From NCBI GenBank assembly GCA_027604705.1, contig JADHYV010000042.1, forward strand, positions 62,001 to 126,000: a DNA stretch of 64,000 nt, read 5' to 3'. Below are positions 4,316 through 28,945 of the stretch, piece after piece; the first letter of the stretch is position 1, and each line of letters opens with the position of its first letter. A program made the translations under genes and the position numbers. This DNA comes from Allomyces arbusculus. Its lineage: Eukaryota; Blastocladiomycota; Blastocladiomycetes; Blastocladiales; Blastocladiaceae. Below the pieces are notes generated by a model. That model was not told the DNA's origin, made no database searches, and was given only the letters and a program-made list of their open reading frames with translations.

Positions 4316-6163
4316 ATGCCCAACAACGCATCCCGACTGTTGCTGCACGAGCTTCCGGTTGACGTCCTGCGTTGCGTTTGTTTGGCCGTCAACAACATCG
4401 ACCGCGAAGCTCTTTCAAACCTCGCTCTTGCCGCTCCGTCCCTGTTTGCGCCTTCCATTCGAACATTGATTCAGTCTCGCGGTGCATGTGGCTTGACCAA
4501 CGACGAAATCGTGACGGGAATCACATTTGGGCGACGTGGCGAATCGTTTTGGCCCCATCCTTTAGGCAAGACACCCGAGCAGGAATCAACGGACCGTCGA
4601 CCATTTCGCTATAACCCGGGCATGTTTGGCGTTGCTATCAATGGCGATGGCGCTGCGATTCTCAACCTTGACGGTCATCCGTCGTGGTATTTGATTTTGC
4701 CGGTTCGTGACGGCTCTCGGTTAGCCTTGGATGGTGCTCCCGACGACCAATTGGTGTCACGCACGCCCTCGGCCCGTTGGTCCCTTGTACGAGTCCAAGT
4801 CGCCCAGTTGCGGTTTTATACGTTGACCGACACGCAGCCTGAGTTGTTCATTCCTCCGCAGTGCCGGCTTCTGCGCTACTTCGGGGATTTTGATGGTGAC
4901 TTCGGTGATATTGATGGTAGTGCCAGTCACGGTGAGAGCCGCAGTGATGGGGAAGATGGAGTGTGGAGCGATGCAGTGTGGAGCGATGCAGTGTCATGTA
5001 TTCCGACCACGGTCCGCCATCTCGTCCTTTGCGATTGCGACTCGTTTTATGGCATCACGCGACTCCTGGCGGGGTCGTGGCCTTCAAGTCTGGACTCGCT
5101 TTCGATTATTACTTCGGATTGGTCGGAGGACCGCAGGAAACGGGGCCTTGAATCATTGCTCTCTAACGCGCCCAAGGCTCTCCGCTCGCTTGTGTTTGAC
5201 ATGCCATGGTGCTCAGATGACTGGCTGTCTTGCTTTCAAGCGCTGTTCTGTTACCTCGGTTCCACCAGGGACCACCTCGAGTCGCTGGTTTTGAAGGCCG
5301 AGCTTGAGCCCATTTACATGCTTTCGCTCTTTGTTGTGCTCAAATTCTTCCCACGGCTTCGCGTTCTTTCGGTGGCTCTGGACATTGGCACCCTACCGTC
5401 AATCCTGGACCAGGTCCTTCAGAACGTCCCTGCCCAAGTGCAGCAGCTCACGCTCTCCATCCAACCGTTTACGGGCCATGCGATTATGTCTTGCGGAATC
5501 ACGTCGCGGATAGAATTCCCGCACGCGTTGCGCGACCTCACAATCGAGTTGCCTCCGATACGCTCACTAGAATCGGAGTTTGTCCTACCGCCCAACCTTG
5601 AGCGACTGACGCTGATCGGATCGTTGCGGGGCGAAAATACGTTCGCGTTCCTTCTCCCGCGCTTGCCCGCGGCACTCAAGACGCTCGCCCTTGAATTTCA
5701 TCTATTTGGTCAGTCCAAGAACGGAGCCTACAAGTCACTTCTCGTCGAGTACCTCCCGCAACACCTCGAGTCGCTGACAGTCTACATGGGGAACCTGACA
5801 TTTGACGATGTGACAGCACTTGCTGTGCGCGGGTGGCCCACGACGCTCCGCCGTTTGGATTTCCGACACAATGCACTTGTCGATTTACCGCCCCTGTTCC
5901 CGCCGCGACTCCGGTACCTTGGTATTGCGCATAATTCGATGCGCGAGAGCGACGGTGCCTGGGTCGCGGCCCTGCCCAATACGGTGCGCGTGATTGATCT
6001 GAAGGCGGTGGACGTCAAGGCGGCGTGGATCCCGCATTTGTTGGCGTGGGCGGCGCAGGTATGGGAGGAGCACGCGGTTCGTGTCGAGTTGCGCGGTTCC
6101 TTCTACTATTTGCCTCGCGCGCTGCGTGCGCAGTTGCAGGAAGCGTTTATGTTGCCCCATTGA
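4316..6163 (+). CDS. F-box-like leucine-rich-repeat protein, copy A
   Basis: Single-exon, 615 residues, with an apparently intact frame. Residues about 8-50 form an F-box-like helical motif (LHELPVDVLRCVCLAV, then ALSNLALAAPSLFAPSIRTLI). A conserved middle module follows, with the family signatures SWYLILPVRD and ARWSLVRVQVAQLRFYTL and then IPPQCRLLRYFGD. About residues 185-220 are an acidic insert with a 15-bp internal duplication (VWSDA twice). The rest is irregular leucine-rich repeats (LPxxLxxLxL), such as LPPNLERLTLIGSL and LPPLFPPRLRYLGIAHN. F-box/LRR proteins usually select substrates for SCF ubiquitin ligases. That role is inferred, because the F-box is divergent and SKP1 binding is not shown. 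It is closely related to the broken copies at 6566-7437 and 12078-13428, and more distantly to the gene at 8596-10440. Confidence 0.75.
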   Translation: MPNNASRLLLHELPVDVLRCVCLAVNNIDREALSNLALAAPSLFAPSIRTLIQSRGACGLTNDEIVTGITFGRRGESFWPHPLGKTPEQESTDRRPFRYNPGMFGVAINGDGAAILNLDGHPSWYLILPVRDGSRLALDGAPDDQLVSRTPSARWSLVRVQVAQLRFYTLTDTQPELFIPPQCRLLRYFGDFDGDFGDIDGSASHGESRSDGEDGVWSDAVWSDAVSCIPTTVRHLVLCDCDSFYGITRLLAGSWPSSLDSLSIITSDWSEDRRKRGLESLLSNAPKALRSLVFDMPWCSDDWLSCFQALFCYLGSTRDHLESLVLKAELEPIYMLSLFVVLKFFPRLRVLSVALDIGTLPSILDQVLQNVPAQVQQLTLSIQPFTGHAIMSCGITSRIEFPHALRDLTIELPPIRSLESEFVLPPNLERLTLIGSLRGENTFAFLLPRLPAALKTLALEFHLFGQSKNGAYKSLLVEYLPQHLESLTVYMGNLTFDDVTALAVRGWPTTLRRLDFRHNALVDLPPLFPPRLRYLGIAHNSMRESDGAWVAALPNTVRVIDLKAVDVKAAWIPHLLAWAAQVWEEHAVRVELRGSFYYLPRALRAQLQEAFMLPH

Positions 6164-6565
6164 GTCGTGAGCCATACTGTCACGGCTTCCATTGTATTTG
6201 CTTCATTTCTCAAACAAAACCGAGTCCAATGCGAAGATTACTGAGTGGCTAACATCAAGCTGTCCATTGATCGTCAAGGAAAGCATCCTCGTAGCGGGAT
6301 TCCGTCAATACCATCAGCTCCACCACAGATCTCTCCGTCTAAACGTGCTTGAATGACAGACCCAGCGCTGTCCAGCGCGTTTGTGTCCGACCCGAGTCAG
6401 GACCGGGTCGTGGTTGCTTTGATAGGTGAGAGGAAGGCAAACAAGGAGTGGGCACGGTTACCTAGCACGAAACCACATTGATCACACCGACGCTCACTCA
6501 CTCACTCCAAGATCCAACACCCCGCACTTGGTGCATTTTCAGAGCTTCATACAACTATCTCATGT
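6164..6565 (+). other. Intergenic, nothing recognised
   Basis: Spacer between copy A and its decayed duplicate. No convincing coding, RNA or repeat signal was seen. Confidence 0.4.
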
Positions 6566-7437
6566 CCTGCAATACTTCCCGGCTGCTACTCCGGGCGATG
6601 TCCTTCCTGTGTCTGCGCAGCAGTCAACCAGATCAACCGACATGCTCTCTCGAACCTCACTCTGGCCGCTCCGTCCCTATTTGTGCTGTCGATCCGAACA
6701 GTGATTTAATCTCGCAGGGCATGCCATTTGACCGACGGCGAAACCGTCGCAAGGATCTCATTTGGGCGGCGTAGCGACTCGTTTTGGCTTCAATCCTTCG
6801 GCAGCAAATCCGAGCAGTCATCAAAGGACCGGCTCCCATTTTTCTATGAGCCTGGCATGTCCAGGACTTGGTGCTGCCGCCCACACTGGAGCGTTTGACG
6901 CTGTTGCAATCGACCAAGTTTGGACCTACCATCTGGTATTTCTTGCCGCGCCTCCCTGTCGCGCTCAAGGTGCTCGTTCTCGAGATTGCAGTGCGCGAGC
7001 GCCGCTTGGACGCCAACACGAGGGCGCTCCTCGTGCAATATCTGCCACCACACCTCTAGTCGCTGACCATCTGCAAAGGGGTTCTTCATTTCGACGACGT
7101 GCGGCTCTTGCAGCTCGCGGATGGCCCACGACCCTCCGTCGCTTGGATTTCCTCTCAGATTTACCTCCCGTGTTCCCGCAGGGGCTGCGGTACTTGGGGC
7201 TCGTGGGTAATCGCAGGCTCAAAACTGACGGCTCGTTGGTTGGGGCGCTACCGGTTAAGGTGCGCGGGAGTGCGTGTGGCTGAGGCCTGGGTCCCGCATT
7301 TGTTGGCGTGGGCGGCCCGGGTTTGGGAAAGGCGCGCGATGCGTGTGGAACTGCGCGACCCGATCTGCGAATTGGCGCACGAATTGTGTATGCAGTTGAA
7401 GGATGCATATTTGTTGCCTGGAGTTGGTCCATGCTGA
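6566..7437 (+). pseudogene. Decayed tandem duplicate of F-box-like/LRR copy A
   Basis: Aligns by eye to the gene just upstream. The N-terminal part (CNTSRLLLRA... through FYEPGM) corresponds to the start of copy A as far as its NPGM segment. At about 6855 the sequence jumps to the part equivalent to VLPPNLERLTL in copy A, so about 950 bp of the middle are missing. It then follows copy A to the end with several frame changes and stops; the C-terminal remnant is readable in one frame at about 7238-7434. The product would not be a functional F-box/LRR protein. It probably arose by tandem duplication followed by an internal deletion. Confidence 0.8.
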
Positions 7438-7799: not shown

Positions 7800-8350
7800 T
7801 TGAAATGAATGCGCTCGACGTTTGTTCAGCGAGCAAGGCATTACATCAGCGACTCAATTTGCGATCCAGCTGCAACCGTGGGCAGCCGCGGGAAAAGGTC
7901 ACGGAGCGTTGCCGGATCGTCGCCGCGCGACAAGCTGAGCCGCGTCAGGCCCGATGTGAGCGGCAGAGCCCGAAGCGCATGCGCTCACGCCGAGGTAAAC
8001 GACTGAAGCCCCGACTCGGTAGACGGCTGGCGACTTGTTGTGGCCTTACACATCACGGCGCAATGAAAACTGGTCAGCGCCCGGGACGAAGATCCCAGCC
8101 ACAGAACCCACGTCGCGGATTGCAATGAGCGCCTGGACTTCCGGCGCAGGTGCGGCAAGAGCAAGATAGGCCCAAGATTGCGGTTGAGGACATGTGAAAA
8201 TCTGCAAACGTCCTTGAGAACGTCGATGCAAAGGTGGTCCAGAGCCAAAGGCTGCCTGGGTGCCTTGCTGATGGTTTCCGGTGCTGATGATGTTGCGTGA
8301 AGTCGAACGAGTATCAGCGGCGTTTGGGTCGTTTTGGAAGTGGAGAACTT
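7800..8350 (-). pseudogene. Fragments of an F-box-like/LRR gene
   Basis: On the minus strand, about 8060-8250 reads LDHLCIDVLKDVCRFSHVLN, equivalent to the family's F-box-like LSDLPIDVLHAVCKFVNRID, followed by a degraded ALAAP segment. Further downstream, at about 7845-7950, another frame reads GLTRLSLSRGDDPATL and DLFPRLPTVAA, a leucine-rich-repeat remnant. The pieces lie in the order and orientation of a family member but in different frames and with most of the gene lost. A strongly decayed copy is the best explanation. Confidence 0.55.
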
Positions 8351-8595: not shown

Positions 8596-10440
8596 TCATC
8601 CGACAACGCAAAACGACGCTTTCAACCGGTCCAGCTCCTCATCCGATAGCCCACCATCCTCCTCGGCCACACGCCACCCGCGCGCTTTACCCCACACGAG
8701 ATCAGGGTCTAGCCACAGCGATAACCGCACCAGACCCCACCGCGGCGCAATCCCGTCAATAAGCGCGCGGGCCAGCTGCTTGACAGCATGCACATCCAAC
8801 GACCGTAGGTCAAGACACTCCATCGTGCGTGGTAAGTGGGCAAGCCATCCGACCTCTTCGAACGGGTTTCCGCCTACGACGAGCGTACGTAGCCGTGGCG
8901 GCAACGGTCCAGGCACGTCGGTCAATTTGTTGGCGCTCAGATCGAGGCGCGTCAGAGATGGCGGCCATAGCAGCAGAGCAACATCGTCGTGCGTCAAGTA
9001 GCAGTGGTGGAGACGAAGCGAGGACAATCGCGGCGGCCAGTGATGCCCGAGAATGACGACCGTATCCTCATCGCGCATCATCCACCACGACAGGTCGAGA
9101 GCGATGAGCGTGTGCGGCAAGTGCGGGAGCAGGTCGTTGAGTGTTTGGACCGACGTGGCCCAATTTGGTGGGTGCGGCGGTCCGTGCAGGCACAATCGGG
9201 ACAGGCCCGGCGGTAAGGACAAGAGATGGGCCATTGACAACCTCCACGGGGGCAAGTAGACCGTCAATTCGGACACCGGCGGTGGCAGAGAGAGTACGAG
9301 CGGCGTGTCGCAACACAGCTCGCCGCGGCGCAAAATATCAACCAGCCGCACCGTCAACGCGAGCCTCTCAAGTTCCAGCGGCATGTGACACATGAATTCG
9401 CAATTGTGCTCCAAATCCTTGCTCGACTCGACATGGATCGAATCGATCTCGAGTTCGCGGAGCCGCTGGACTTTTCGGAGCGCACGTGCCAGAGCTTTGA
9501 GACTCGACGATCCACTGCGCATATACGTGGACTTCAAAGCAAACAACTCTAAGCACACGAGGGTCGGGAGCGCGCGGACCAGCAGAGCAAACCCGTCCTC
9601 GTGAATCGTGCTGTTGAGCCACGGTAAACTCAGCGAGAGCCGTCGGAGCGTCGAAGGCAACGAGCAGAAAAGACTGACAGGTATATCGTCGTCGCCGCAC
9701 GTTGTTGCAACCGGTTCCGCGACCGAATCAATGACCAGTTCGTGTAGCCGGGCCGGTTTCGCGCCAAAGAATAGATCCATGACGTTAGTGTCGGGAAATG
9801 AAAACCGCTTGAGCTCCAGCCGCCGAATCGTATCGGGGACTGGCCGCGCCGACTGCGTGCCCTTGGCGTCTCCGATAAAACACATGGAGCGACATCGTGG
9901 CGGTACAAACCAGGCGATCTGGTCGCTCCGTCGCGTAAAAAACTGCAGCATTTCCACGGGCACGGGCAGGGTCGACCACCGGATTGACAGGTGCTGCATC
10001 GCGCGCGCACTCGTCGCGATCCATGGGCGCGGTTGCGTGACACGTTGCCGGTTGCGTGGCGGCAGCAAGAGAAACCAGCGCGATGGATCGACTTGCGGGC
10101 CGCCCTTTTTTGGATCAACTTGCACGGCAAACGTGCCGACGCGGTAGTCTGTGGAGTACGAGTGGCCGCCATGGAGTCGGAACCGGTCGTTGGCAAGGAC
10201 GACAACGCCCGCATGGAATTCGGACTCGGTGTCGGAATTGGGGTCCCATGCGCCGTGCCAGGCGAACAGCGTGCGAATGGCCGGCACAAAGAACGATGGT
10301 CCAGCGAGGGCGAGATGCGCGAGGGACGCGCGGTCGATGCGGTTGACAAACTTGCACACGGCGTGCAGCACGTCGATCGGGAGGTCCGACAGTGATCGTC
10401 GCGGATGAGGGCCGTCGATTGCTGATGGTGCAACGTTCAT
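8596..10440 (-). CDS. F-box-like leucine-rich-repeat protein, copy B
   Basis: Single-exon, 614 residues, opposite in direction to copy A. The frame stays open upstream to 10533, but 10440 is the first ATG and gives the N-terminus MNVAPSAIDG, close in length to copy A. Residues about 15-60 contain the F-box-like motif (LSDLPIDVLHAVCKF, then ASLAHLALAGPSFFVPAIRTL). The middle module follows (RWFLLLPPRNR, IRWSTLPVPVEMLQFFTRR, VPPRCRSMCFIGD). Leucine-rich repeats occupy about 200-600 (LPSTLRRLSLSLPWL, LPPGLSRLCLHG, WPPSLTRLDLSANKL, LPPRLRTLVVGGN). A role as an SCF substrate receptor is possible but unproven. The frame is intact and there is no acidic insert. Confidence 0.75.
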   Translation of the reverse strand: MNVAPSAIDGPHPRRSLSDLPIDVLHAVCKFVNRIDRASLAHLALAGPSFFVPAIRTLFAWHGAWDPNSDTESEFHAGVVVLANDRFRLHGGHSYSTDYRVGTFAVQVDPKKGGPQVDPSRWFLLLPPRNRQRVTQPRPWIATSARAMQHLSIRWSTLPVPVEMLQFFTRRSDQIAWFVPPRCRSMCFIGDAKGTQSARPVPDTIRRLELKRFSFPDTNVMDLFFGAKPARLHELVIDSVAEPVATTCGDDDIPVSLFCSLPSTLRRLSLSLPWLNSTIHEDGFALLVRALPTLVCLELFALKSTYMRSGSSSLKALARALRKVQRLRELEIDSIHVESSKDLEHNCEFMCHMPLELERLALTVRLVDILRRGELCCDTPLVLSLPPPVSELTVYLPPWRLSMAHLLSLPPGLSRLCLHGPPHPPNWATSVQTLNDLLPHLPHTLIALDLSWWMMRDEDTVVILGHHWPPRLSSLRLHHCYLTHDDVALLLWPPSLTRLDLSANKLTDVPGPLPPRLRTLVVGGNPFEEVGWLAHLPRTMECLDLRSLDVHAVKQLARALIDGIAPRWGLVRLSLWLDPDLVWGKARGWRVAEEDGGLSDEELDRLKASFCVVG

Positions 10441-10666: not shown

Positions 10667-10991
10667 CTCCTTTTCAGGTTCAAAGTGGGGAAAAGTATCA
10701 AGCATGTGGGAAATCACAGGTCCCAATTGGGACGAAGCAAGAGCAAAGTGGAACGTTTTACCCAGACTGGGACTTGACGAAAACAGGTTAACGTGAAATC
10801 AAGTGAGAGATCCGAAAAACAAGTGGGATGGCAAAAACCAATTTGGGATCCCCAATGCAAAGTGGGACAACCCAAAAGGCAAAGCGGGAACCGCATCAAG
10901 CGTTTGGGAAAAGCATGGGCCAAAGTGGGACAACCAGGCTATGAATTTGGGATAAGAGTGGTTCGAAGTGGGACTGGCATAGGGTCTGGGA
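10667..10991 (+). repeat. Left inverted arm of foldback element
   Basis: Reiterated CAAAGTGGGA-like units in the + direction (for example near 10681, 10860, 10920 and 10967). Matches the reverse complement of 11726-12056 along its length. A well-conserved shared segment is ACCGCATCAAGCGTTTGGGA. Confidence 0.75.
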
Positions 10992-11725: not shown

Positions 11726-12056
11726 GTCCCACGTCCAAGTGGCGAGTCCCACTTTGGACCACTCTAATCCCAATTTCATCCCTGGGCTGTCCCACTTTCG
11801 TCCATACTTTTCCCAAACGCTTGATGCGGTTCCCGCTTTGGAGCACATCTTTCCCTAATGGTGTCGCGCATCCCAAATTGATCTGAATAGTCTCAAATTG
11901 TACCTACTGATCCCAGTTTGCATTTGGATCGTCCCACCTGTTTTCGAAAAATCTCAGAATGGTTGAAACGTCCCACTTTGCACATGGTTTGTCCCAGTTG
12001 AGACCTTTGTTTTCCCATATGCTTGATGCTTTTCCCACTTTGAACCTGAAAAGGAG
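11726..12056 (-). repeat. Right inverted arm of foldback element
   Basis: Reverse-complement partner of 10667-10991, with TCCCACTTTG-like units on the + strand. Its outer end lies about 20 bp from the truncated end of the neighbouring F-box/LRR pseudogene at 12078. Confidence 0.75.
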
Positions 12057-12077
12057 CATTGCTCCTTCGATGATGGT

Positions 12078-13428
12078 TCAAGCAAGCCTGGGTGTGTGTT
12101 TGGTTTGCTGCAGTGCTTGGCGAGTCATGGCGAAAGCACAAACAAATACAGCTTCGAAACTGGGAATGTTAAGCAGGGCACCCAGCAGGTCTGGGCCATC
12201 ACTGATGTCTGCTGTCACGGAGAGGACTCGAAGTCGTGGAAACCACCCCATGGTCGCGATATACAATGTCAGCAAGTTTGGGCGCATCCTGCTCGGCCGT
12301 CAATATCAATTACTCAAGGCTGTTCCGGACGGAGGGCAAGTATTTGAGTAGGCCCCAAACACCTTGGCGCCAGTGGAACACTTCCAAAACCCCATCGGCC
12401 CAAACACAAAATCGCGTTTCTGTGCCTGTGTGCAACTATTGAACCATTGCTGCTTTGCATCAGAAGGACCAAAACAATGCCCTGCCATGGTGCAAAGGCA
12501 AAGTGGATGCGATTGCTGGTTGGCGAGAAATCGAGCTTCAAATATTTGAGTCGGGGAGGTGTTGGAAGTGTTCCAGTCAGAGTTTCACCACGGCGCGTCA
12601 ATCACGAGAGGGCGGAGCGTCTTGGGCAAGTCATAACAAATGTCCTCGAGCCCCGTTGCATTGAGATTAGCCGACAGGTCGGAAACAATGGACAGAGAGT
12701 GGAGGACAGGATTCCGACATCGGCAAGAGTCGTGCAATGCCGGGAAATCACGTCGCACAAGATGTTGCAGAGTCTGGGAAATGGGGCATGTTGCACAATT
12801 TTCCATTTGCGTCGCTGTTGCCATCACATTCGCCACTATCGCCACGGAAGCCCAAGTCTCCAACATTGCGCAACAATCGACACTGGGGAGGATGGATCAC
12901 TCGGGTTGAAGATCGGTGACCCGTGTAGTACCGCAACGTTGACACCAGAACGGGGATGAGCGACCACTTGCCGAAGGTGACGTCGAGAACAGGGTCATGG
13001 GTCCATTGTCTACGACTGTGGACCGTGCACAGTCGCGAAGCAGCAAGAGCAAGTACCAGGAAAATTGGCCATCCTCATCGAGCACAACATTGTCGTCATG
13101 GTCAGCAACAACGCCAAAAATGCCGGCCTCGTAGTGAAACGATGACGATTGCAAGTCCTCCTGCTTTGGCAGTTCGCCAAACTTCCGCAGCCAGAACGTG
13201 GTCGCATGTGATCGACCAGACATGAGCCTGGTCGCAACTTCGCCGTTGTTCGGGCCGCAAGCGCCGCGGTACCGGATCAACGTTTAAATGGAAACCGAAT
13301 ACAGTAACCGCGCTGGAAGGGCGAGGTGCGAGAGAGCATGTTGGTCGACCTTGTTGAGAGCCATGCAAATGACGCGCAGGGCCTCGGCCGGGAGCTGGTG
13401 CAGCGGGTTACGGGCACGGTTAGGCATG
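12078..13428 (-). pseudogene. Truncated, decayed F-box-like/LRR gene (copy A subfamily)
   Basis: Reads from an MPNRARNPLHQLPAEALRVI N-terminus at about 13428 through ALSHLALP, then in another frame RYRGACGPNNGEVATRLMSG, GIFGVVADHDDNVVLDEDGQ and SWYLLLLLRD. It ends with FPRLRVLSVTADI at about 12170-12250. Each segment has a direct counterpart in copy A, but they fall in several frames with stops. The C-terminal 40% is missing: the homology ends beside the foldback element. Non-functional. Confidence 0.75.
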
Positions 13429-13483
13429 GGCAATTATTTTCCGGGCTTGAGATGCACAGCGCACTGGTTTTGCCTTGAGTCCG

Positions 13484-13964
13484 CTGTGGACGCTCACGAC
13501 GCTGAGTCTCGAATCGTGGCTTCTGGGCGGTAACGGTGCCATAGCGCTGCTGGCGCGCCATATGCCGCCGCGCCTCCAGTCGCTGACGCTCGTTGATTGC
13601 CATCTCGAGCGCACTGACCTTGCAGCTATCACGAAATGGCCGCGGTCGCCGACGCACCTGCGTTTGCCGTTCAACCGGATTGACGCTCCCCCGGTCCCGC
13701 TTCCGCCGCGTCTTCGATCTCTGCTTCAACCCGCTCAAGCAGGAAGAGTCTGCGTGGATTATGGACTTGCCGGGCTCGCTGCGGTACCTCGAGTTGCCGT
13801 CGACGACCGATGTGGAAGCGTGGCCCACACCGTGCCTGCTCCCTCTCTTGCCGTGCAACAGTCCGCACGAAAAAATCATGCTCGGGATGGATGTGAGCAC
13901 CTTGCTAGAGGAGATGCGGGGCTGGATGAGAGAGGCGTTTATTATTTGGAACCCAAACAATTGA
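13484..13964 (+). pseudogene. C-terminal fragment of an F-box-like/LRR gene
   Basis: The plus-strand frame reads LLARHMPPRLQSLTLVDCHL and PLPPRLRSL, the family's leucine-rich-repeat pattern. It continues after a frame change with WIMDLPGSLRYLELPS and TLLEEMRGWMREAF, equivalent to the last residues of family members. The F-box and middle module are absent. It lies head-to-head with the pseudogene at 12078-13428. Confidence 0.65.
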
Positions 13965-14100
13965 CATGTTTTTCCTTGCTGCGAGCAGATTGGGTCACAG
14001 ATTGTGTTCCGCTTCCGTTGTGTCTCGCCCTCACCACCTTCCACCTGCTGCGTTTTCCACCGCCTTCCACCAATATCTTCGAGACAATGCTTGCAGCATC

Positions 14101-14420
14101 ATGCTTGGCGAGCCCGGCATGCATACTAGCCTAACAGAGGTCGCTGCACCAGGACCCGCGTCGATAATGTCACCTGCCGCACTTGACCAACTGCCGTACG
14201 ACGCTCTTCCCCGGCTCGTCGAGCTTGTGAGTTTGATCCATGATAGCTGTCTTCGCGCTTTGACCTATTGCATTTTGCTCTGGCTGCACCGACTCTGTTT
14301 GAACCATGCATCACAGTTGCGATCCGCCTGGGTGCTGGATCTGATTCTTCCGTCGACCAACTGCGCTTCGACGAGTCGGATCAGGTGAACATTCGTGGCA
14401 TTGATGTGGGGCGATTCTTC
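14101..14420 (+). pseudogene. N-terminal fragment of a copy C/D-type F-box-like/LRR gene
   Basis: Begins with ATG at 14101 in the context GCTTGCAGCATCATG, which matches the start contexts of the genes at 15192 and 17389. It reads MLGEPGMHTSLTEVAAPGPA, then LDQLPYDALPRLVELV and, after a frame change, ALAAPTLFEPCITVAIRLG and LRFDESDQVNI. Homology is lost after about 14420, so only the F-box-like part survives. Confidence 0.7.
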
Positions 14421-15191
14421 ATTGCATGGCGGAGCGCCATGGTCTTCATATTCCACTTTTTCGTGATAAGCTCTTTGAAAGACCTTGATTGCTCTTCCAC
14501 AGTTTGCTGTTGAGCATTCATGGCTTTAATGCATGTGGAGCTTGACGACCTGGTGCTTTGGACGTCATGATCTGCGGCTTTGGCCGGCGGTAATTGGCAA
14601 AATGACCGCCATCCCGCATCGCCACGACGCCAGAGCAGCCCGCCGCGCCGTGTAGAGAGCATACTTTCGCCATTTTGATACACTCTACGAACCCCTGGGC
14701 AAGGAAGAGCGGAGCAGAGCGCTTGTGCGTGAGCAAGCATCCGCAAGCATCCGCACGCATCCGACTCGGCCATGCTGGCTGTTGGCAGTCTGGCGTGGGA
14801 CTCTTCGCCCGACGCGCGTTGTTCTCTCGTCCAAAGCCCAGGGTTGACACCGGTCACCTGCTGGGCGCCGTTGGCAGGGTTGGTCGAGGCGCTGAGAAGA
14901 GGCACGGCGAGGTTGTGCTGGTGGTTTCAAGTCGGGTGGCGTTTCTCTTCACCTCCTCCACCTGATGGCATCACAGACCAGTCTACTCTCTTGGGCTGGA
15001 CCAGTGTCTCCTTTCCTTCTCGTCCTTCTTCGCAGAGGATTGGGAGAGGAAAAGTTAAAGATGGCGGCGACCCGTCGCCTCTCGCTGTCGCTGCTTGCAC
15101 TGACCGCACTCCTCGCACCGCCTTGCACACAAGTTGCAGAATAGACCGTCGCCTCCATTGTTTCACGTCAAGAAAGAACACTTGCAGCAAC
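14421..15191 (+). other. Spacer and upstream region of copy C
   Basis: No gene recognised. The frame of copy C stays open upstream to 14772, but the sequence there looks like non-coding translation. A 10-bp unit GCAAGCATCC is repeated about three times at 14733-14762. The last 40 bp before 15192 are conserved with the region before 17389, which supports the chosen start. Confidence 0.45.
14733..14762 (+). repeat. 3 x 10-bp tandem repeat
   Basis: Two exact GCAAGCATCC units followed by GCACGCATCC. Confidence 0.8.
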
Positions 15192-17388: not shown

Positions 17389-18960
17389 ATGATTGGCGAG
17401 CAACGCAACACGCACAAGAGCTCGGCGGTGGACACCACACACGATGAACCCGCGCCAACACTTGCCGCGCTCGACCAGCTCCCGTACCATGCTCTCTACC
17501 GTCTCGCCGAGTTTATGAGCGAGCCCTGGTCGCCTGCGCGGGTCGACCTGCTTCATCTCGCCCTCGCTGCGTCGGCGCTGTATGAACCGTGCATGACAGT
17601 CGCGATTCGCACGGGTACCGGATTTGATTCGCCTCGCTGGCGTCTCAAGCTGGTTGAACCGGACGAAGTAGATCTTGGCGAGACCGATGTCGGGCACTTG
17701 GTCGGTGTGACGGACGAGGTGACGCGCCGTGTCCAATATTACTTGATCCTGCTGCCGCGCGATCATCATGGAGCTCTGATGCCGTTGGTCAAGGGTTCCG
17801 GCCTGCATCGGGACAAGAAGTTCTGTCGCGCTTCCCGGAGGTGGTCTCTATTACCCGTCCCGCTGCGGCAGCGTCGCACGTGTGAGCTAATTGGCAAGCA
17901 CCCGAGTCTCGCGCTGCCGCCACACTGCGAGAGCATGTTTATCTACCTTGCTGCCCCGTGGCGCGACCACCAGTTCCGGTTTCCCGAGTCGCTTGTCTCC
18001 CTCCATTTGATGAATTCTCCGGCGCGAGACGTGGACGCTCGCCGAGCATTTGCGACGCTCCCTGCCCACTTGAAGTCGCTCATGTTGACGTACAGCAAGC
18101 CAGGCCAGTTGGCGAAGATTACCGAGCAGCTCTTGCCCCACGTTCCGTCGGCATTGACGACCGTTGTCGTATACAGTCATGACGCGGCGGATGACAACGT
18201 GCATAGGATTGCCGAGCTCGTGCGCCGATTGCCCTGCTTGACGTCGTTTTCCATGACAGTGCCGCGTGGCAGGGCTGGGATCGACTTGGTTCTGGCTGCC
18301 CTTCCTCGCACTGGCCTCAAGAAGCTGTCTATTTGCGCTGACCATGGTGACCAGAGCGAGGACGAGGGTCCCGACGCTCTTGATCCGGCCGGTCAGGCTG
18401 GATTTGAAGCGACAGATAGCGGTGGAAATGATACCGGTCCTGCTCCTCCTCGTCCGACGCCACGTTTCCCAACGACCGTCGAGTCACTTGAGCTGCGTGT
18501 CCCATATCCCCAAATACGGCGGATTGGTCTCGTCGGTTCCAATTTCCCGACTGCCACGCGCGAGTTGAACATTGACGTGTCCGATTGGGACGCGACTATG
18601 CTCCGCACCGTGCCGTTGGCGTCGACGCTTCACCGGCTCCAGGTCTTCTTCTCAGACGAGGCCAATTTCGGCACGATTGCGAATGTGTTTATGCCACGGC
18701 TTTCTCCGTCGCTCAAGCAGCTCGACTTGAGCGAGAGTGCGCTGGGCAGCACGGTCGTGGTTAGCGCTCTTGCGCGGTATCTTCCGGCGCAACTTGCGAC
18801 GCTCACGCTCGCGGATTGTGAGATTTCCGTCAAGGACCTCAAACAGTTTGCTGGCCGGTGGCCGCGCACGCTGCGGCGGCTCGACGTGTCGGGTGGGCTG
18901 CTACATGCGGAAGGCAAGATACCACACTTGCCCAAGGGATTGCGCGAGCTGCACGTGTAG
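17389..18960 (+). CDS. F-box-like leucine-rich-repeat protein, copy D
   Basis: Single-exon, 523 residues, tandem with copy C. F-box-like motif LDQLPYHALYRLAEFM with LHLALAASALYEPCMTVAIR. Middle module YYLILLPRDHHGAL, RRWSLLPVPLRQRRTCEL and LPPHCESMFIYLAAPW. Leucine-rich repeats run to the end, which reads LPKGLRELHV. The acidic insert is at the same place as in copy C but shorter (about 320-345, DQSEDEGPDALD), directly before FPTTVESLELRV. Near-collinearity with copy C points to a fairly recent tandem duplication. The frame is intact. Confidence 0.78.
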   Translation: MIGEQRNTHKSSAVDTTHDEPAPTLAALDQLPYHALYRLAEFMSEPWSPARVDLLHLALAASALYEPCMTVAIRTGTGFDSPRWRLKLVEPDEVDLGETDVGHLVGVTDEVTRRVQYYLILLPRDHHGALMPLVKGSGLHRDKKFCRASRRWSLLPVPLRQRRTCELIGKHPSLALPPHCESMFIYLAAPWRDHQFRFPESLVSLHLMNSPARDVDARRAFATLPAHLKSLMLTYSKPGQLAKITEQLLPHVPSALTTVVVYSHDAADDNVHRIAELVRRLPCLTSFSMTVPRGRAGIDLVLAALPRTGLKKLSICADHGDQSEDEGPDALDPAGQAGFEATDSGGNDTGPAPPRPTPRFPTTVESLELRVPYPQIRRIGLVGSNFPTATRELNIDVSDWDATMLRTVPLASTLHRLQVFFSDEANFGTIANVFMPRLSPSLKQLDLSESALGSTVVVSALARYLPAQLATLTLADCEISVKDLKQFAGRWPRTLRRLDVSGGLLHAEGKIPHLPKGLRELHV

Positions 18961-19289: not shown

Positions 19290-20972
19290 ATGACATTACC
19301 GCCACGCTCGCTCATTGAAAATTTGCCCAACGATGTGCTCCTGACCCTTTACGGCAGCATGGCGGAGGACGCCGGACTCGATGCGCTCCTTTCGTTTGCG
19401 CTCGCGACCCCGATCGCCTACGCGCCTGCGATCAAGGCGGCCCTGGCTCGTGCTCACGGGATCTCAAATCGGTGGAGCATCGAGTTCCGCGACCATGGTG
19501 AGACCATTCGTCTGGAATCACGAAAAGTTATTGGCAATCTGATCCACGCACGCTGCCCACGCTTGCATGTCGGGGAATGGTACCTGATCATGCCGTTGCG
19601 CGACAAGAACCGTCAGGACACATGTTGCAGCGGCGGCTTCCGGCTTGTAGGTTCATTTGCGTGGTCTCTCCTGCCGATTCGCAACCTCGACCCGATTCGA
19701 CATGTGCATTTGCAGGCGCGCGGGGACGTGCCCGAGTGGATGCCGAGTGTCTTGCCGCCGTATCTCTCGACACTGTCAGTTGGCGGCGAATGGTTTGATG
19801 AACGTCGTGACTGGGACGATGTCCCACGCACAGTTACGCATCTCGAGTTGCAATGGTGCCACATGGACGTCGACATCGCACAGGCGTTCATGGCGAGCAT
19901 GCGCAACACGCTTCGTCGGCTGACGATCAAGTACTATGAGCATCACCGTGCCAAATTCATGGATACTATCTTGCGCGCGTGTCCGCCCGGGATCAAGCAC
20001 CTCGAGCTGGTGAGCCGCGGGCCGTATTCGGTCGCGGCCAATATCGGCGCGCTTCTCGATGTGATTCCAACACTTTTGCATTTCGAAACGTTTCGTGTCA
20101 CGAATTGTCCGAACAGGATGTCGCTGCAACTGCTCGCTGCGCTCGCGGCGGCGCCAAACTTGCATGTAATCCGGTTGGGGTTCCACGTCGACCCTGACGA
20201 CCTTCCCCCCCAACATCCGCGCATTGTTTGGCCGCGGGCCGTGAAAGTCATTGATCTTGCCGTCGCGACGACGCTGGAGAATGGGCGCTCAGTCTCAGTT
20301 AGTTCAGCCGGGATCGCTGCCGCGGAACGGGCCATGCTCGAGTTCCTCAAGGGTTTGCCCATGGCAACCGACCGTGTGAGCCTTGATGCACCGTGGTGGT
20401 CTGCAGATATGGTCGAGCAAGTGGCGCGGATTTGTCGGCCGTCACTGACGTCGCTCACACTTGTGGCTCGGGCCGGAAATATTGCGGCTTCATCGCTCAC
20501 CAACGCGCATGTTCCCGCTGGGCTCCGGTTCCTGGCGCTGCATGGCTTCCAAGGATGCAACGTTCCGACGGTGCAACCATCCGTTGCTGTTGCTTCAATG
20601 CGCGGTCGCCATGAAGAGACGACTGCAGCATCGCTACCTTCCTTCGCCTCGGTGTTTCCGTTTGATCAAGGCACCGTGACCGATACGTGGGCAGGTTGGC
20701 CTCCGAACTTGCAAACGCTCGACATCTATAATTGTGACTTCCCGCTTGACGGGGCATGGATCAAGACCTTGCCATCGACTTTGCGCCACCTGTCCGTGCG
20801 GCACTGCAGGCTGAGCGACGACATCGCGCAACATTTGATTGACCGGAGTACCACGATGGGAAATAGGACCGTTGTGGTTCGGCTGAGCCTGAGTCTCACT
20901 CGAATCATGTCACCGGAGATGCTGGCCAGGCTCCAGGAATCAGTGAATTATCGGATGCAGGGTTTGCGGTAG
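19290..20972 (+). CDS. F-box-like leucine-rich-repeat protein, copy E
   Basis: Single-exon, 560 residues from the first ATG after the TATA box. The open frame extends further upstream to 18858, but that part overlaps the end of copy D. F-box-like motif LIENLPNDVLLTLYGSM with LSFALATPIAYAPAIKAAL. Middle module EWYLIMPLRDKNRQDT, FAWSLLPIRNLDPIRHVHL and MPSVLPPYLSTLSV. The leucine-rich repeats are shorter and more divergent (MRNTLRRLTIKYYE, WPPNLQTLDIYNCDF, LPSTLRHLSVRHC). It is the most divergent intact member in the cluster and forms its own subfamily. No acidic insert. Confidence 0.75.
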   Translation: MTLPPRSLIENLPNDVLLTLYGSMAEDAGLDALLSFALATPIAYAPAIKAALARAHGISNRWSIEFRDHGETIRLESRKVIGNLIHARCPRLHVGEWYLIMPLRDKNRQDTCCSGGFRLVGSFAWSLLPIRNLDPIRHVHLQARGDVPEWMPSVLPPYLSTLSVGGEWFDERRDWDDVPRTVTHLELQWCHMDVDIAQAFMASMRNTLRRLTIKYYEHHRAKFMDTILRACPPGIKHLELVSRGPYSVAANIGALLDVIPTLLHFETFRVTNCPNRMSLQLLAALAAAPNLHVIRLGFHVDPDDLPPQHPRIVWPRAVKVIDLAVATTLENGRSVSVSSAGIAAAERAMLEFLKGLPMATDRVSLDAPWWSADMVEQVARICRPSLTSLTLVARAGNIAASSLTNAHVPAGLRFLALHGFQGCNVPTVQPSVAVASMRGRHEETTAASLPSFASVFPFDQGTVTDTWAGWPPNLQTLDIYNCDFPLDGAWIKTLPSTLRHLSVRHCRLSDDIAQHLIDRSTTMGNRTVVVRLSLSLTRIMSPEMLARLQESVNYRMQGLR

Positions 20973-21410: not shown

Positions 21411-22039
21411 CGATTCTGAAGAGAAGTGAAACGGTCGCTGCCGCGGCAGAGTGCATCAGCGGTGGAAAGCATCTCAGCAACGCTTTCCCCCGGGAGGCAA
21501 GTCACATCGAGACCCCGCAGCGACGCGGGCAGCACTTGAAGCATCCAATTAAACGACGCCAGGTTTGCCGCGCGCCGGTAGTTGTCACGCAGGTTGAGCA
21601 GACACAGGCGCGGCGGGAGCGTTAACAGGACGCCATCAAGTTGGTTTCGCTCAAGTCCAAGCACTGCAGCGAGTCGGGGAAAGGCAGCACTCGGCCAAGC
21701 GTTGGATTTGAGATTGCATCCGGGAAGACAAGAGAGCGGAGGCACGAGGGAACGTGCATCATGAGTGTGCGCAAAGCTGCCTTGCAACTGAGATACTGCT
21801 GCTTGACCATGAGGTCTGTCAATGATACAGCAAGCGTGGGGCAATGGTTTCAATGCCTTCTGCCAGGCCTGTCCCGACGAATAAAAAAGGGAGAGACGAC
21901 GCAGTGTTGCCGTCAACGGAGCCGCGCACACATAGGGGTCGTCCAGACTTCCTAAGCATGACATCCAATGAGTCCGTTGTGCAGGTTGACCTGAACTCGA
22001 CTCTTTCTCGTTCAAGATGGTGAGCTCATCACCTCGCAT
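21411..22039 (-). pseudogene. C-terminal remnant of an F-box-like/LRR gene
   Basis: The minus-strand frame contains LTATLRRLSLFYSSG, AVLGLERNQLDGVLLTLPPR followed by LCLLNLRDN, and LPASLRGLDVTCLPG, all of the family repeat type. There is no F-box-like start, and the upstream part is not readable as the family. Probably the broken 3' half of a member. Confidence 0.55.
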
Positions 22040-22229: not shown

Positions 22230-22560
22230 CTGGATCGTTACTGGTCTCGACAAATAATCAAGCGCGCTCACGTACGAAGATGTGGAAGCGCTTTTCCATC
22301 ATGGCTTGCCCTCAACCCTCGTGCGTTTGCCTCGGGGAATATGCCTTGGACGCACTAGCGCCCTTGTTTCCGCGGCGCCTCGCAAGCTCGATTTGTGTAG
22401 AAAAGCGCTCGACGCCAGTGAGGCCAGCGACTGGATCGCAGCCCTTCCAACAACAATTCGGTGGCTCGGCCTGAGTGAGACACAGACGTGCTGCGTTGGC
22501 GCCCGCGCTTCTCGCAGATCTTGCTGGCAAGAGCGCCGTGGAGCGAATCACGTTGGAGGT
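22230..22560 (+). pseudogene. C-terminal fragment of an F-box-like/LRR gene
   Basis: Reads LTYEDVEALFHHGLPSTLVR, then SAAPRKLDLCRKALDASEAS and WIAALPTTIRWLGLSE, equivalent to the last repeats of family members (compare AAWVAHLPVTLTVLDFGN in copy F). It has no N-terminal part. Confidence 0.6.
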
Positions 22561-22608
22561 TGTGGACGAGACTATTCCATGCACCGTGCATGCGCGGTTG
22601 GAGTCGGT

Positions 22609-22617: not shown

Positions 22618-22935
22618 TGAGTGATAAGTGACAACGGTTCCATGTTTACAAAGCATACTGCTGCCAGTGTGCTTCCTCCCCAGGTTCGCAAGAGATTCGG
22701 AAGTTTGGACGTGGTGATGAGTTTTCACAACAAACAAGGCTCACTTACCAGCCAATTTGCACAGTCGGGAGTTCGGTTCCTGTGGTCTCGTGCGCCCCTT
22801 CCTCATCTTGAACTCCAACAAAAACCTAACATCTCCAGCAACGCCCCCACTCGCCGCATTCGCGTTCTCGCTGTTATCGCTGCATTTGATCGCAAGCAAG
22901 AACCTGAATCAGTCGCCGCGGCGGATCTGACCAAA

Positions 22936-24639
22936 ATGGCGTCGCCTGGCCAGTCCACACCCAATTATGGCCAACCCCAATTGACCCTCGACAAACTCCC
23001 GCACGATATTCTGCTCGCCATCTCAGCCAAGTTGCACGACCGAATTCGCGGTGCGTCATTGCTTCAACTCGCTCTCGCTGCGCCCGCCCTCTTTGCTCCG
23101 GTCGTGCAGACTGCAATTCGGCATGCGACCCAGGCAATTCGGAGCCCGAACCAAATTTTTGGCGCTGGCAGCGACACTGCAAAGGACGTGGTCACCGTTA
23201 GGTCAACGTGGACTGGCATGCAGGTCCACTATTTCGTGCAGGACGATGGCGTGGAACGGCCCCAGTCGTATTTAGTATTTTCGCGCCGATCCAGCGACCG
23301 CATGCTCGTGACCACCAATAGCAAAGACAACTGCTCGCGGAAATGGTCTCTTATTCCTATCGCCGAGCACCAGGTCGCCCACTTTACGATTTACAGGCGT
23401 CGGGCCTCTACTGCGATTCCACCGCGTTGTGTCAACCTGTCGATTGACAATATCCCAGACTCATTCTGGGCGCGCCTTCCGCCATTTCCGCAATCAATAA
23501 CGCGACTCTCGATTGCCCATTCCGACCCCTTCGAGTCGAGTGCGGTGATCCCGGCTTTGACCACATTGCCGCCCGGTCTCCTTTCCGTGTCGTACTCGCT
23601 TGACCCAGGGCTCTGGATGGCGCGTGCTCCGGATTTGCTTGTGCTCTTTGAACAGTTACCGCCGTGTTTGACTGAGCTGAAATTGAACATTGGTCATGCC
23701 ATGGACACTGACCAAGGGCGCTCAGCACTCTCGGCCGCACTGGAGAAGCTGCCCGCTCTGTCGTTGTTCACGCTCCAAGGGTGGAGTCCCATTGGTCTTG
23801 ACCAGGTCGTCAACAAACTGCCGCGCACAGGCTTGCGTTTGCTCCACCTGCAGCTTGTTTTACGGGAAACTGCGGAGTTTCTTTCAGCATGCAAGGTACT
23901 TGCTGCCAGTTTTCCAACGACCGTTGAGCGATTCGAGCTTCGTGTTCTCGAAGATGGTGTGGTGAGCTCGACATTGCTCGCTCTTTTATCTGGAATTCCG
24001 CTCGCCACTCGCGAGCTGATTCTCAACGTGCCGAATTGGAATATGTCGATGTCGCGTGCACTTCCGCTGGCTCCGACCCTCCAACGCTTCACGGCCGGCC
24101 AAAGTCAGCCCGACATTCGTGGCAAGCTTCTCGAGGCCTTGCTTGGTCGCATGCCAGCATCACTCAAGCACCTCGACGTTGCCGATTGGATCATGGCGAG
24201 CTTTTCACACAATGTGGCGGATGCCTTGCCGCAGCATCTGATGTCGCTTCGCTTTGCGCCCCACCACCTCAACGATGTCGACATGTATCTCCTCACGTCG
24301 TCGTGCCCAGCGTCGCTGCAACATATGGTTCTCGTTGGCAAGCGCCTGACCAGCGTGCCCTTTGTGCTTCCGCCACGTTTGCGCACGCTTCGTCTCGAAT
24401 CGAATGCGGCGCAGATGGACAGGGACGCGGCATGGGTTGCGCATTTACCGGTCACGCTGACGGTACTTGACTTCGGCAATTTGAAGCTATCCAGCCAGGC
24501 TGTAATGCAACTGCGGCGATGGTTTCCCACCCGTCCAGGGCACCAACGCGTCCGCATCCACGTCGGTCGCAACGTGGGCCTGTCACAGACGGACTTCGAA
24601 TCGTTGGAGGCACAGTTTGACGTGGTGCAGTCGGAATAA
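22936..24639 (+). CDS. F-box-like leucine-rich-repeat protein, copy F
   Basis: Single-exon, 567 residues from the ATG at 22936. The frame is open upstream to 22621, but family alignment begins only at LTLDKLPHDILLAISAKL. F-box-like part LLQLALAAPALFAPVVQTAI. Middle module QSYLVFSRRSSDR, RKWSLIPIAEHQVAHFTIY and IPPRCVNLSIDNI. Leucine-rich repeats include LPRTGLRLLHLQLVL, FPTTVERFELRVL, MPASLKHLDVADW and LPPRLRTLRLESN. It lacks the acidic insert of copies C and D at the equivalent place. It is the closest intact relative of the broken minus-strand copies at 26753-28390 and 28440-28945. Confidence 0.78.
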   Translation: MASPGQSTPNYGQPQLTLDKLPHDILLAISAKLHDRIRGASLLQLALAAPALFAPVVQTAIRHATQAIRSPNQIFGAGSDTAKDVVTVRSTWTGMQVHYFVQDDGVERPQSYLVFSRRSSDRMLVTTNSKDNCSRKWSLIPIAEHQVAHFTIYRRRASTAIPPRCVNLSIDNIPDSFWARLPPFPQSITRLSIAHSDPFESSAVIPALTTLPPGLLSVSYSLDPGLWMARAPDLLVLFEQLPPCLTELKLNIGHAMDTDQGRSALSAALEKLPALSLFTLQGWSPIGLDQVVNKLPRTGLRLLHLQLVLRETAEFLSACKVLAASFPTTVERFELRVLEDGVVSSTLLALLSGIPLATRELILNVPNWNMSMSRALPLAPTLQRFTAGQSQPDIRGKLLEALLGRMPASLKHLDVADWIMASFSHNVADALPQHLMSLRFAPHHLNDVDMYLLTSSCPASLQHMVLVGKRLTSVPFVLPPRLRTLRLESNAAQMDRDAAWVAHLPVTLTVLDFGNLKLSSQAVMQLRRWFPTRPGHQRVRIHVGRNVGLSQTDFESLEAQFDVVQSE

Positions 24640-25213: not shown

Positions 25214-26540
25214 GTGGCACCGCGCCCACGGCTAGATGAGCTGCCAGACCTGGTCGTGACACATCTGGCGGAATGGGTCGTTCGTCTTGACTCGAATCGC
25301 ACACTTTGCTTTCTTGCGCTTGTGGCTCCAACGCTCTATGCACCTTGTTTGCATGCCGCGATCCGGGCGGGCACTGGGTTCAGTACAAGAAACGTTTACC
25401 CGGTCTTTGACTTTCGCACTTATAACAATTGCATTGGAGAGTTTGAGGTCAGCAAGCATCGACTAGAGGGCGTGGACCTGATCCTTCCGCCCCGCGATGG
25501 CAATCGTACGCTGATTTCGTCGGGCATGGTAATCAAAAATCGATCCTTGGATTCGGCTGCGATGCCTTACAAATGGCCTTTCCTGCCAGCGCCCATTATT
25601 TTGTTGCGATGCTTCTTCACCAAGTGTGCCCATGGGCATGCGATACCACCGCTGGTTCATCGCCTGGCTCTGGTGAACCGCAAGAAGTTTTCGTGGATGA
25701 TTATTGCGATCCCAATGACGCTGGTCGAGCTCGAACTGGATGACGCGGTCCTCCCGAGCAGCGATGACGGAATACAGCATATCAACCTGCCGCTGAGCCT
25801 GCGCAAGTTTACGCTGAAGGAGCTCGCTCGTCGTGATGGCAACAATGCTGCGGCTTCCAAGGTATATGGCTAGGCCGTGGGTCGGGTGCTTTCACTTCTC
25901 CCGGCGACGATTACGTTGCTCGCATCTGAAAGGCAATATCAGCCATTCCCGAAACTGGCGCTGCGTGAGATTAATGCGCTCATTATGCGGCTGCCGTCTC
26001 TTACGTCATTCGCTATGGCGGGGGAAGTCGCGTCCGAATTCAAGCGCGTATTTCGTGCGCTCCCGCGCGATAAGCTGTTGCTCCTTGACCTTCGTCTCGA
26101 TTTCTGGTACAATATGTTGCCGAAATGGTCGGTGCTCCTTGAAAAGCTGCCCATATCGGTTGGCACGCTTCGATTTTGCGTGATATGCCGGACACCTCAT
26201 GCCCGTGTTGCACTCGATGTTGTCCATCTTCTGCGGCTCCCCCTTGCAACGGAAAAGACGTTTGTACGCCTTCCCAATTAGTCGGAGACAATGTGTGAGG
26301 AACTCCCGCTCTCACCAACATTGCACAAACTTTCCCTGGGGGTGACACGCCACAAGGCCAACAACCCAGTTTGGGCGCCATCGCGCCGCGTCTGCCCGCA
26401 TCGCTTATCCACGTGGAGGTCAATCGATAACGGATTGGTCCCGCAGTCGCTTGCACGACTCAATGGCTCACCTCCCGTGCTTCGACAATGTCGTTCTGGC
26501 TTTTCCTTGTGCACGTGGTCGAAGTCCTTGGATTGATGCT
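25214..26540 (+). pseudogene. Recently broken F-box-like/LRR gene
   Basis: Reads as a family member over most of its length: LDELPDLVVTHLAEWV, FLALVAPTLYAPCLHAAIR, VDLILPPRDGNRTL, MPYKWPFLPAPIILL and IPPLVHRLALV, then repeats. It opens with GTG where an ATG would be expected. In-frame stops lie at 25871-25873 and 26279-26281, with the same frame resuming after each. A frame change follows at about 26370-26400, after which GAIAPRLPASLIHVEVNR matches the family repeat. The good preservation between breaks suggests recent inactivation. Translation of a short 219-residue F-box and middle-module protein cannot be excluded. Confidence 0.75.
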
Positions 26541-26752: not shown

Positions 26753-28390
26753 TCACCTCATTTTTAGCGACTTTCTACAGCTTCCTGGCGCTCTTGTTGT
26801 CAAGGGCAATCTGGTTGCACAGCCACCAACAAGCACGAAGCCACGCAATGTGGTGGGCAACAACGACGCAAAATGCCGCAGGTCGCCATCGTTGAGGTGG
26901 TTGGGCGTGAAATGAAGCGACACCAAGCTCTCCGGCAACGCGTCCTCCAATTTGGATGGAAACTTTGTCATGTCCCATTTGGCCACGTTGATGTGCTTGA
27001 CCAATGTAGGTAGACGACTGAGTAGGACCACGAGGCGAGCGCCATCAACGGCGTACTGACCTTGTGCAATGGTGACACGTTCAAGGGACAGAGCGAGCGG
27101 GAGAGTATGCAACATGGCCTTATCGAGACTTCGCACAATAATGGTGAGCTTGAGACTGGTCAACGGGAGACCAGGGAAAAGTGGGGCTATCAAATTTGGC
27201 TCAGAATCCAGATGCACGTGCAATTTGAGCCGCTCAACGGTAGCTGGGAAGCAGGTGGCCAGCACCATGCATGCAGGACGGTCTGCATGGTCATAAACAG
27301 CAAGCTGCAGATCGAGCAGCCGCAAGCTTGTGCGTGGGAGTGAGGCGAAAACTAGTTTGAGACTAACAGAGTCGTTCACTTGAAGCGTGAAAGACGACAA
27401 GCTGGGCAAATTATGGATTGCTGACGCGAGCATCGATTGTACTAGTTCCGTGCCAAACGTGAAGCCATTACCCAGCTCAATTTTGATTCAGGCCGATGGC
27501 AAGCAGGCAAGGAACATGAGAAGTAACTCGCGAGCACCTACCTGCATGCCGTGAATCATGCCAGTATGACGCAGAACAAAGGCCGTGCGGTAACGTGTTG
27601 AAGAGTTTCTCCATGATGTTCGATTTGGCAGGGAAACCGCTGACAATAAACAAGCGTTTCAACGAGGGCGGAAAAGGCGGGATACGAGACCAAATATCAC
27701 CTGGAAACTTGGCCATTGACAAGTCGGTACAGTGCACTGGGACGGCAGTGCAGGCAGGTCCCAGCTTCGTGGATTGCAATAAGGGTCAATTGGCAATTAG
27801 GAACGTTCAGTAGTGACCATGTGATGTGGAGCAGAGCTCCCCATTGATGTGGAGCAGAGCTACTTGTCTAGCTCCTGTTGCATGCTTGTTGTTGTTGTTG
27901 ATTCCCGCTTGTCATTCACGTATAAAGCTGCCCAACTGTACCTCTGGGTACGACAGGCTCATTCTACACTCGACACCATATCACCATGTCCCTGAGCACT
28001 GGTCATTGAAGTAGCTCTCATCGTCGTCGACTGCCAACAAAGGGTGCTGACCCTCGCCACGTCGTGAAAGTATCAGGAACAACTGGATACGCTCCACGCC
28101 ATTCTTGAGTTCACAACAATGAGCAAGCATCCCAATCAATTTAGCTTGATGGTCACCAGGTCTGCAACAGCATTATCATTCACATCAAACTTGTAATTTG
28201 GGTTCTGAACAGCCCTGACAGCTTGCAGAATTGCAATGCACACAGGCGGGACAAACAGGCGGGCGTGGCAAGAGCGAGTTGAAGGAGTACTACACACGGT
28301 CTGGAGCGTGCAATTTCCTAGAGATGAGATGGCAAGCAGAATGTCGTGCAGGAGTCGTTTTGAATGCTGAAGGTTGATCATCACCCTAAG
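26753..28390 (-). pseudogene. Decayed copy F-type F-box-like/LRR gene
   Basis: Three minus-strand blocks in order match copy F. About 28384-28140 holds the F-box-like start (LLHDILLAISSLG, AVQNPNYKFDV). About 27779-27480 has LSMAKFPGDIWSRIPPFPPS. At 27433-26753 there is a 226-residue open stretch with LPRTSLRLLDLQLAV, FPATVERLKLHVHL and PESLVSLHFTPNHLNDGDLR. The blocks lie in different frames and part of the middle module is missing. The long open 3' block shows that decay is not old. Confidence 0.75.
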
Positions 28391-28439
28391 TCAACCCATT
28401 TTGGTTACAATTGACCGGAGCAAGGAGGACCAAAATCCT

Positions 28440-28945
28440 TAGTTGAGACCAATAGAAACAAGTAATTGAAGACAGGTAGTTAATTCCCTTGGTGAAACTT
28501 GGATGCTGTCGTGTGCTACTGCCAACGGTGCAAAAAGGGTAATGAAGCTTGGGGCGAACAGGTACAACAAGACTAGCACTCGAGTCTGGCAATGAACAAG
28601 CAAGCCAATCCAACTCGGTTCAATGGTCACCATTTCCGCTGCCGCATCGTTGTTCAGAGAGCTGGTGAGGCCAAGGGAAGAGATGTGAATTGGGCCCTGA
28701 ACCGTCTTCTTTGCACGTCGGATTGCATCGTGCATTACCAGGAAAATAGGGCGGGCGCGCCAAGAGCAAGTCGGAGGAGTGACGGGCCACGATCCAACAT
28801 GTGCAATTGATTGAAGAGGGCGAGCTAAGCAACGTTGGAGAGCTCTTCGAGCATTGATTGGGCATGTGACGCCATGTTGGTTTGACAGGTCACCGGCCGC
28901 GGTAATTCGGACCGGCGTGGCAAGAAAATTCATGTAATCGTTCAA
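28440..28945 (-). pseudogene. N-terminal fragment of a copy F-type F-box-like/LRR gene
   Basis: The minus-strand frame reads RPIFLVMHDAIRRAKKTVQG, then AAAEMVTIEPSWIGLLVHCQ, equivalent to copy F APVVQTAIRHATQAIRSP and DVVTVRSTWTGMQVHYF. No leucine-rich repeats follow. It lies directly upstream of, and parallel to, the pseudogene at 26753-28390, so the two may be products of one duplication. Confidence 0.6.

Follow-up and report, generated by a model that had tools for sequence, protein, structure and literature searches.

An F-box-like leucine-rich repeat gene family of Allomyces arbusculus: clustered, mostly old paralogues that may encode SCF substrate receptors

Expanded F-box families accompanied by pseudogenes or gene loss have been reported from plants (PMC3030570), Caenorhabditis (PMC8665587) and the Parachlamydiaceae (PMC4209131). 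The plant F-box superfamily, with 198-1350 loci, is described in terms of birth and death and genomic drift (PMC3030570), and besides the expanded F-box families of Caenorhabditis (PMC8665587) a set of 21 Skp1-related genes is reported for C. elegans (PMC4063957). Among fungi, 74 F-box proteins are reported for Aspergillus nidulans (PMC9744329) and five LRR-bearing F-box proteins for Macrophomina (PMC7991009).

The Allomyces family analyzed here resembles the FBXL proteins, such as TIR1 and Skp2, in its N-terminal F-box-like helices and its C-terminal LRR solenoid, and TIR1 is present among its fold and profile matches, whereas it differs from them in a weak Pfam F-box match, a conserved module, approximately 115 residues long, preceding the LRR part and repeats of the type LPxxLxxLxL. 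Some mushroom-forming fungi also possess large F-box-like families. The same machinery is proposed for the Allomyces family as for the canonical fungal F-box proteins of Aspergillus nidulans and Macrophomina, but about 55 long-frame members of a single LRR class stand here beside 14 canonical F-box matches. With the plant superfamily it shares many loci, many pseudogenes and relaxed purifying selection, but the host is a fungus, the loci are fewer and little recent duplication is seen in the sample (PMC3030570). Clustering and lineage expansion are likewise features of the Caenorhabditis F-box families (PMC8665587, PMC4063957), whereas a single SKP1 match contrasts with the 21 genes reported for C. 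elegans (PMC4063957). Birth-and-death evolution of ubiquitin-related adaptors is also described for the F-box and BTB families of the Parachlamydiaceae, which, unlike the present family, are bacterial and have been suggested to be secreted effectors (PMC4209131). Among the literature matches listed, in which subscription journals are thinly covered, no title or beginning of an abstract described this family. The type of expansion is known from plants and worms; the version present here is old and strongly diverged, and the family differs from the described ones by its diverged F-box, its middle module and its large LRR class.

The window, that is the whole stretch of 64,000 bases that was analyzed, comprises bases 62001-126000 of contig C42 in a eukaryotic genome of 25.9 Mb and 197 contigs. 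The region 4316-28945 contains six long single-frame genes of the family, eight clear broken copies and one weak remnant (Table 1). The six intact single-frame genes recognized in the preliminary description are thus borne out by their long frames, by pairwise BLASTP links (E 4e-44 for m1 and m2, 4e-167 for m3 and m4, 1e-28 for m6 and m2) and by the scores of a 35-member family profile, although the pairwise link of m5 is weak (best E about 2e-6). The "about ten" broken copies of that description hold in so far as many decayed copies are present, the count being eight plus the weak one, and the seventh member placed at 62239-64000 does belong to the family but carries a frameshift. The genes m1 to m6, all of which are part of the profile, scored 364-504 bits each, and m7 and the remnants, which are outside the profile, 10.7-211 bits; since the reversed window yielded no more than 0.1 bit, chance is excluded as an explanation of these matches. 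The genes m3 and m4 lack the last approximately 80 residues that are present in the other four (m1, m2, m5 and m6) and in most members of the family; two loci elsewhere in the genome (L053 and L055) also end early at the C-terminus. Frames that are open upstream of the chosen starts of m3 and m6 make a longer N-terminus possible in both, and for m6 the later methionine at 22936 is likely to be the start, rather than that at 22642. The cluster also contains a 99-base inverted repeat (10880-10978 and 11742-11840, 87% identity) with a spacer of 763 bases.

Table 1. Members and remnants of the F-box-like/LRR family in the window
Feature	Position	Strand	Remarks
m1	4316-6163	+	Intact F-box-like/LRR gene, 615 aa
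Broken copy	6608-7419	+	Nearest to m1, 63% identity over N-terminal part
Weak family remnant	7877-7996	-	10.7 bits
m2	8596-10440	-	Intact, 614 aa; structure modelled
Broken copy	12570-13430	-	N-terminal half m1-like; contains stops
Broken copy	13457-13943	+	C-terminal LRR part
Broken copy	14080-14468	+	N-terminal part, m3/m4-like
m3	15369-16958	+	Intact; family homology from 15369, ATG-initiated frame from 14772
m4	17389-18960	+	Intact, 523 aa; sister of m3
m5	19290-20972	+	Intact, 560 aa; longest branch in 35-member tree
Broken copy	21467-21934	-	C-terminal LRR part
Broken copy	22255-22491	+	C-terminal LRR part
m6	22936-24639	+	Intact; ATG-initiated frame from 22642
Broken copy	25214-26421	+	In-frame stops; first part m3-like
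Broken copy	26753-28881	-	In pieces, m6-like
m7	62239-63998	+	Near full length; frameshift between 62757 and 62766; reaches window end

Each family gene consists of one long frame, whereas the neighbouring frames of a valyl-tRNA synthetase and a GH18 chitinase are split and that of a thiolase lacks its N-terminal part. Judged from the frames alone, this pattern fits the presence of introns in the neighbouring genes and thereby the contrast that had been drawn between them and the one-frame family genes. The window further contains a Chitin_synth_2 match besides the chitinase, and the genome a match to an axonemal dynein light chain, as would most likely be found in a fungus that forms flagellated spores; structural RNAs and tRNAs were not found in the window at the thresholds used. 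Eight of the nine frames compared in the neighbourhood have GC3 values of 0.77-0.88, above those of the family genes (0.64-0.71); the exception is a chitin synthase piece with 0.69. A 218-base inverted repeat with 98% identity (50977-51194 and 61813-62030) bounds a segment of 10.6 kb, its second arm lying approximately 200 bases upstream of m7. A single search of the genome at the DNA level gave these two matches only, and the repeat possibly reflects an inversion or a recent duplication. Another repeat, direct and 40 bases long (44822-44861 and 45777-45816, 85%), is located where the frame of an amino-acid transporter ends and perhaps represents a partial duplication of that end.

Seven single-protein searches of the genome (queries m4, m2, L028, L066, m5, m6 and L063), the hits of which were merged at E 0.001 or better, yielded 141 family loci on 42 of the 197 contigs. 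As each search scores its best candidates only, distant members will have escaped detection, and other LRR proteins may account for some of the weak matches among the 141 loci that cover the LRR part only. An open frame of at least 500 codons is present at about 55 loci (read off by hand), not counting m7 and a locus at C42:127188, in which the main frame exceeds this length but a different frame encodes the N-terminal part. Contigs C6, C42 and C59, with 32, 20 and 12 loci, respectively, carry most of the large groups, and 93 loci have another member within 10 kb; the family thus occupies several sites in the genome, of which the cluster in the window is one. The high copy number implied in the preliminary description, as well as birth and death that leaves numerous decaying copies behind, was accordingly found in the window and genome-wide in the form of clusters, pseudogenes and numerous copies, and it goes along with a profile-profile similarity to F-boxes that is presented below.

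The reading preferred here, with a probability of about 0.7, is that the family comprises cytosolic F-box-like/LRR substrate receptors of SCF ubiquitin ligases that undergo slow birth and death under relaxed purifying selection. The conserved N-terminal F-box-like helices would dock on SKP1, the receptor bound in this way would join a cullin-1 SCF ubiquitin ligase, and the variable LRR solenoid would hold the target for ubiquitylation; the family would expand through local duplication and through dispersal, with its copies decaying at a slow pace. One SKP1 match and cullin matches on five contigs indicate that the partners are available, and SKP1 binding and ligase activity of the proteins are considered most likely.

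The architecture was deduced from an alignment of 35 members, obtained from 38 frames of extracted loci by dropping three (L038, L048 and L068) and replacing m5 with its full-length version. The N-terminus comprises about 45 conserved residues of the pattern LxxLPxDVLxxxAxxLxxxDRxxLxxLALAAPxLyAPCLxxAIR, and the following module of about 115 residues with the conserved motifs WYLxLPPRxxxR and SrxWSLLPVPxxQ separates it from the solenoid, which ends in most members with a piece containing WixxLPxsLRxLdL. Conservation is highest in the F-box-like part, with a mean frequency of the top residue of 0.52 compared with 0.33-0.39 elsewhere. Since the N-terminus is conserved and the LRR part variable, the proteins fit receptors that dock through an end kept constant and bind their targets through a variable one. 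C-terminal leucine-rich repeats, the feature of the FBXL class, are evident from several approaches: each of the two commonest Pfam LRR models matched 13 of the 35 members at E 0.1 or better, TIR1 and a GALA protein are among the LRR chains matched by profile, and the solenoid in the model of full-length m2 (mean pLDDT 64.6, LRR blocks mostly 60-93) matches known LRR structures with query TM-scores that reach about 0.5 within the best 50 fold matches, internalin A being the first and ribonuclease inhibitor and TIR1 being among the matches listed. The middle module gave no significant match in the fold search, and apart from the LRR, FNIP and F-box models and isolated weak hits, of which STAS_2 (E 0.004) was the best, no Pfam family was matched in the 35 members. 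These results, together with the profile-profile match of the N-terminus, uphold the assignment to one F-box-like and LRR-bearing family.

The Pfam FNIP model matched six of the 35 members, and the family resembles in this respect, as in its fold matches, the F-box/FNIP-repeat proteins of giant viruses, which combine an F-box with LRR-like repeats and are also found in amoebae. A viral origin was rejected: viral contigs were searched once with m2 under strict conditions, requiring near-exact short peptides, and contained no relative at this setting, and fold matches to giant-virus LRR proteins were dismissed as generic LRR matches.

The paralogues are mostly old. Of the 35 proteins, 31 share 32-59% identity with their best partner and the other four 62-78%, and dS of the 14 most similar pairs ranges from 0.35 to saturation, being saturated in one pair and high in several. 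In a tree of the 35 members, m3 and m4 are joined with support of 100/100 and m1 and m2 with 90/89 within a six-row group at 100/100, whereas m6 and m5 stand apart from both pairs, the placement of the long-branched m5 being unsure. Contig labels are clustered on the tree overall (19 changes, shuffle mean 24, none of 200 shuffles as low) and for contig C76 (none of 500 shuffles as low), but no such clustering was detected for C42 and C59, for which 57 and 101 of 500 shuffles, respectively, were as low. A rapid recent tandem expansion finds no support in the sample of 35, as the window members fall into several separated groups and the C42 labels are not clustered. The cluster is thus a mosaic of old paralogues or subfamilies with a few younger duplicates, namely m3 and m4 (dS 0.92) as well as m1 and the adjacent broken copy. 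The low identities and high dS values speak for slow birth and death and against the rapid turnover that had initially been suggested.

Of the 14 most similar pairs, 13 allowed dS to be measured; their dN/dS values are 0.24-0.40, and relaxed purifying selection is most likely to act on these sequences. Seven near pairs, three of which share members, differ at 30% of the sites in the F-box-like part, 46% in the middle module, 44% at exposed strand positions of the LRR, 40% at other LRR positions and 14% in the LRR core; the F-box-like part accordingly differs least, the LRR core aside. The proteins therefore appear to be maintained, with no sign of diversifying selection either in the dN/dS values of the 13 pairs or in the comparison of exposed LRR positions in seven pairs, both of small power; positive selection on a recognition surface is thus not borne out by these data. 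Genomic drift, in which copy number wanders with little functional meaning and many members are hardly used and decaying, is a serious competitor at somewhat less than even odds, as long open frames are confined to about 55 of the 141 loci, GC3 is 0.64-0.71 in the family genes and 0.69-0.88 in the nine neighbouring frames, positive selection was not seen, and the same reading has been argued for plant F-box genes (PMC3030570). However, long frames and dN/dS values well below 1 despite ancient splits indicate that many copies are kept by selection.

An intracellular surveillance, in which the LRRs would recognize parasite, viral or mobile-element proteins and target them for degradation, is regarded as unlikely. 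Architecture, copy number and decaying clusters resemble such systems, and SCF components of C. elegans are reported to be induced by microsporidia, their knock-down modestly raising the pathogen load (PMC4063957); moreover, two genes on different contigs, L028 and L031, are near-identical around codons 406-540 (dS 0.05-0.09, compared with 0.2-0.6 in other windows), and this tract inside otherwise diverged genes suggests gene conversion. On the other hand, exposed LRR strand positions show no clear excess of changes (44% versus 40%), the paralogues are mostly old, and one SKP1 match faces the 21 Skp1-related genes of C. elegans (PMC4063957). The farther-reaching proposal that a germline set of some fifty intact cytosolic SCF receptors, based on a diverged F-box and a middle module without a counterpart elsewhere, provides intracellular recognition of parasites or mobile elements and would thereby be the equivalent in a fungus of NLR arsenals or of the F-box arsenals of nematodes, is less likely still. 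Drift, endogenous regulation and surveillance are the candidate explanations for the family, and a role in self/non-self recognition, as mentioned in the preliminary description, is likewise conceivable.

The assignment of the N-terminus was examined by comparing the profile of the 35 N-termini with seven canonical F-boxes encoded in this genome, which represent seven of eight loci fetched from the 14 found. The hhalign comparison yielded a score of 26.3 and a probability of 73%, the alignment spanning the LP..vL segment. None of 200 column shuffles of the F-box alignment exceeded 14.1, the reversed alignment scored 8.1, and when the family alignment was scanned in 26 windows of 60 columns, the first scored 25.1 and none of the others more than 12.4. 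Because the match withstands these shuffling, reversal and position controls, homology of the N-terminus to the F-box is likely. The F-box prediction of the preliminary description therefore stands at the level of profile-profile comparison, but curated Pfam models give weak matches (F-box best E 0.029, three of 35 members at E 0.1; F-box-like 0.063, two of 35), m2 with 14.7 bits staying below the curated F-box cut-off of 20.5, and the only PDB chain matched by the N-terminal profile up to E 10 is not an F-box protein. Three N-terminal helices were modelled (pLDDT 72), the corresponding part of the full-length m2 model being poor (block pLDDT about 45-53), and a Foldseek search with the N-terminal model revealed no F-box among the best 50 matches (best E 0.32). 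The weak Pfam scores and the missing F-box in the PDB profile search and among these fold matches would suit LRR scaffold proteins that work without SKP1 and carry a helical cap at the N-terminus; the position-specific profile match to canonical F-boxes makes such proteins improbable.

As to the location of the putative receptors, a crude hydropathy scan, taken from the start nearest to the F-box-like part, gave 12-residue maxima of 0.39-1.80 in the first 45 residues of m1 to m6 compared with 2.92 for the neighbouring chitinase, and the lack of a strongly hydrophobic leader argues for the cytosol. F-box/LRR effectors exist in bacteria and a GALA protein is among the profile matches of the family, but secreted or injected effectors acting on the ubiquitin system of a host are very improbable in view of these hydropathy values.

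The 14 matches of the Pfam F-box model in the genome include none of the family loci, whereas the family has about 55 members with long frames. The F-box load of such a fungus would therefore be badly undercounted, because the model misses the family. If the proteins bind SKP1, a single adaptor would serve a very large set of receptors, and the family would provide a fungal system for asking whether drift or conflict drives the expansion of F-box genes.
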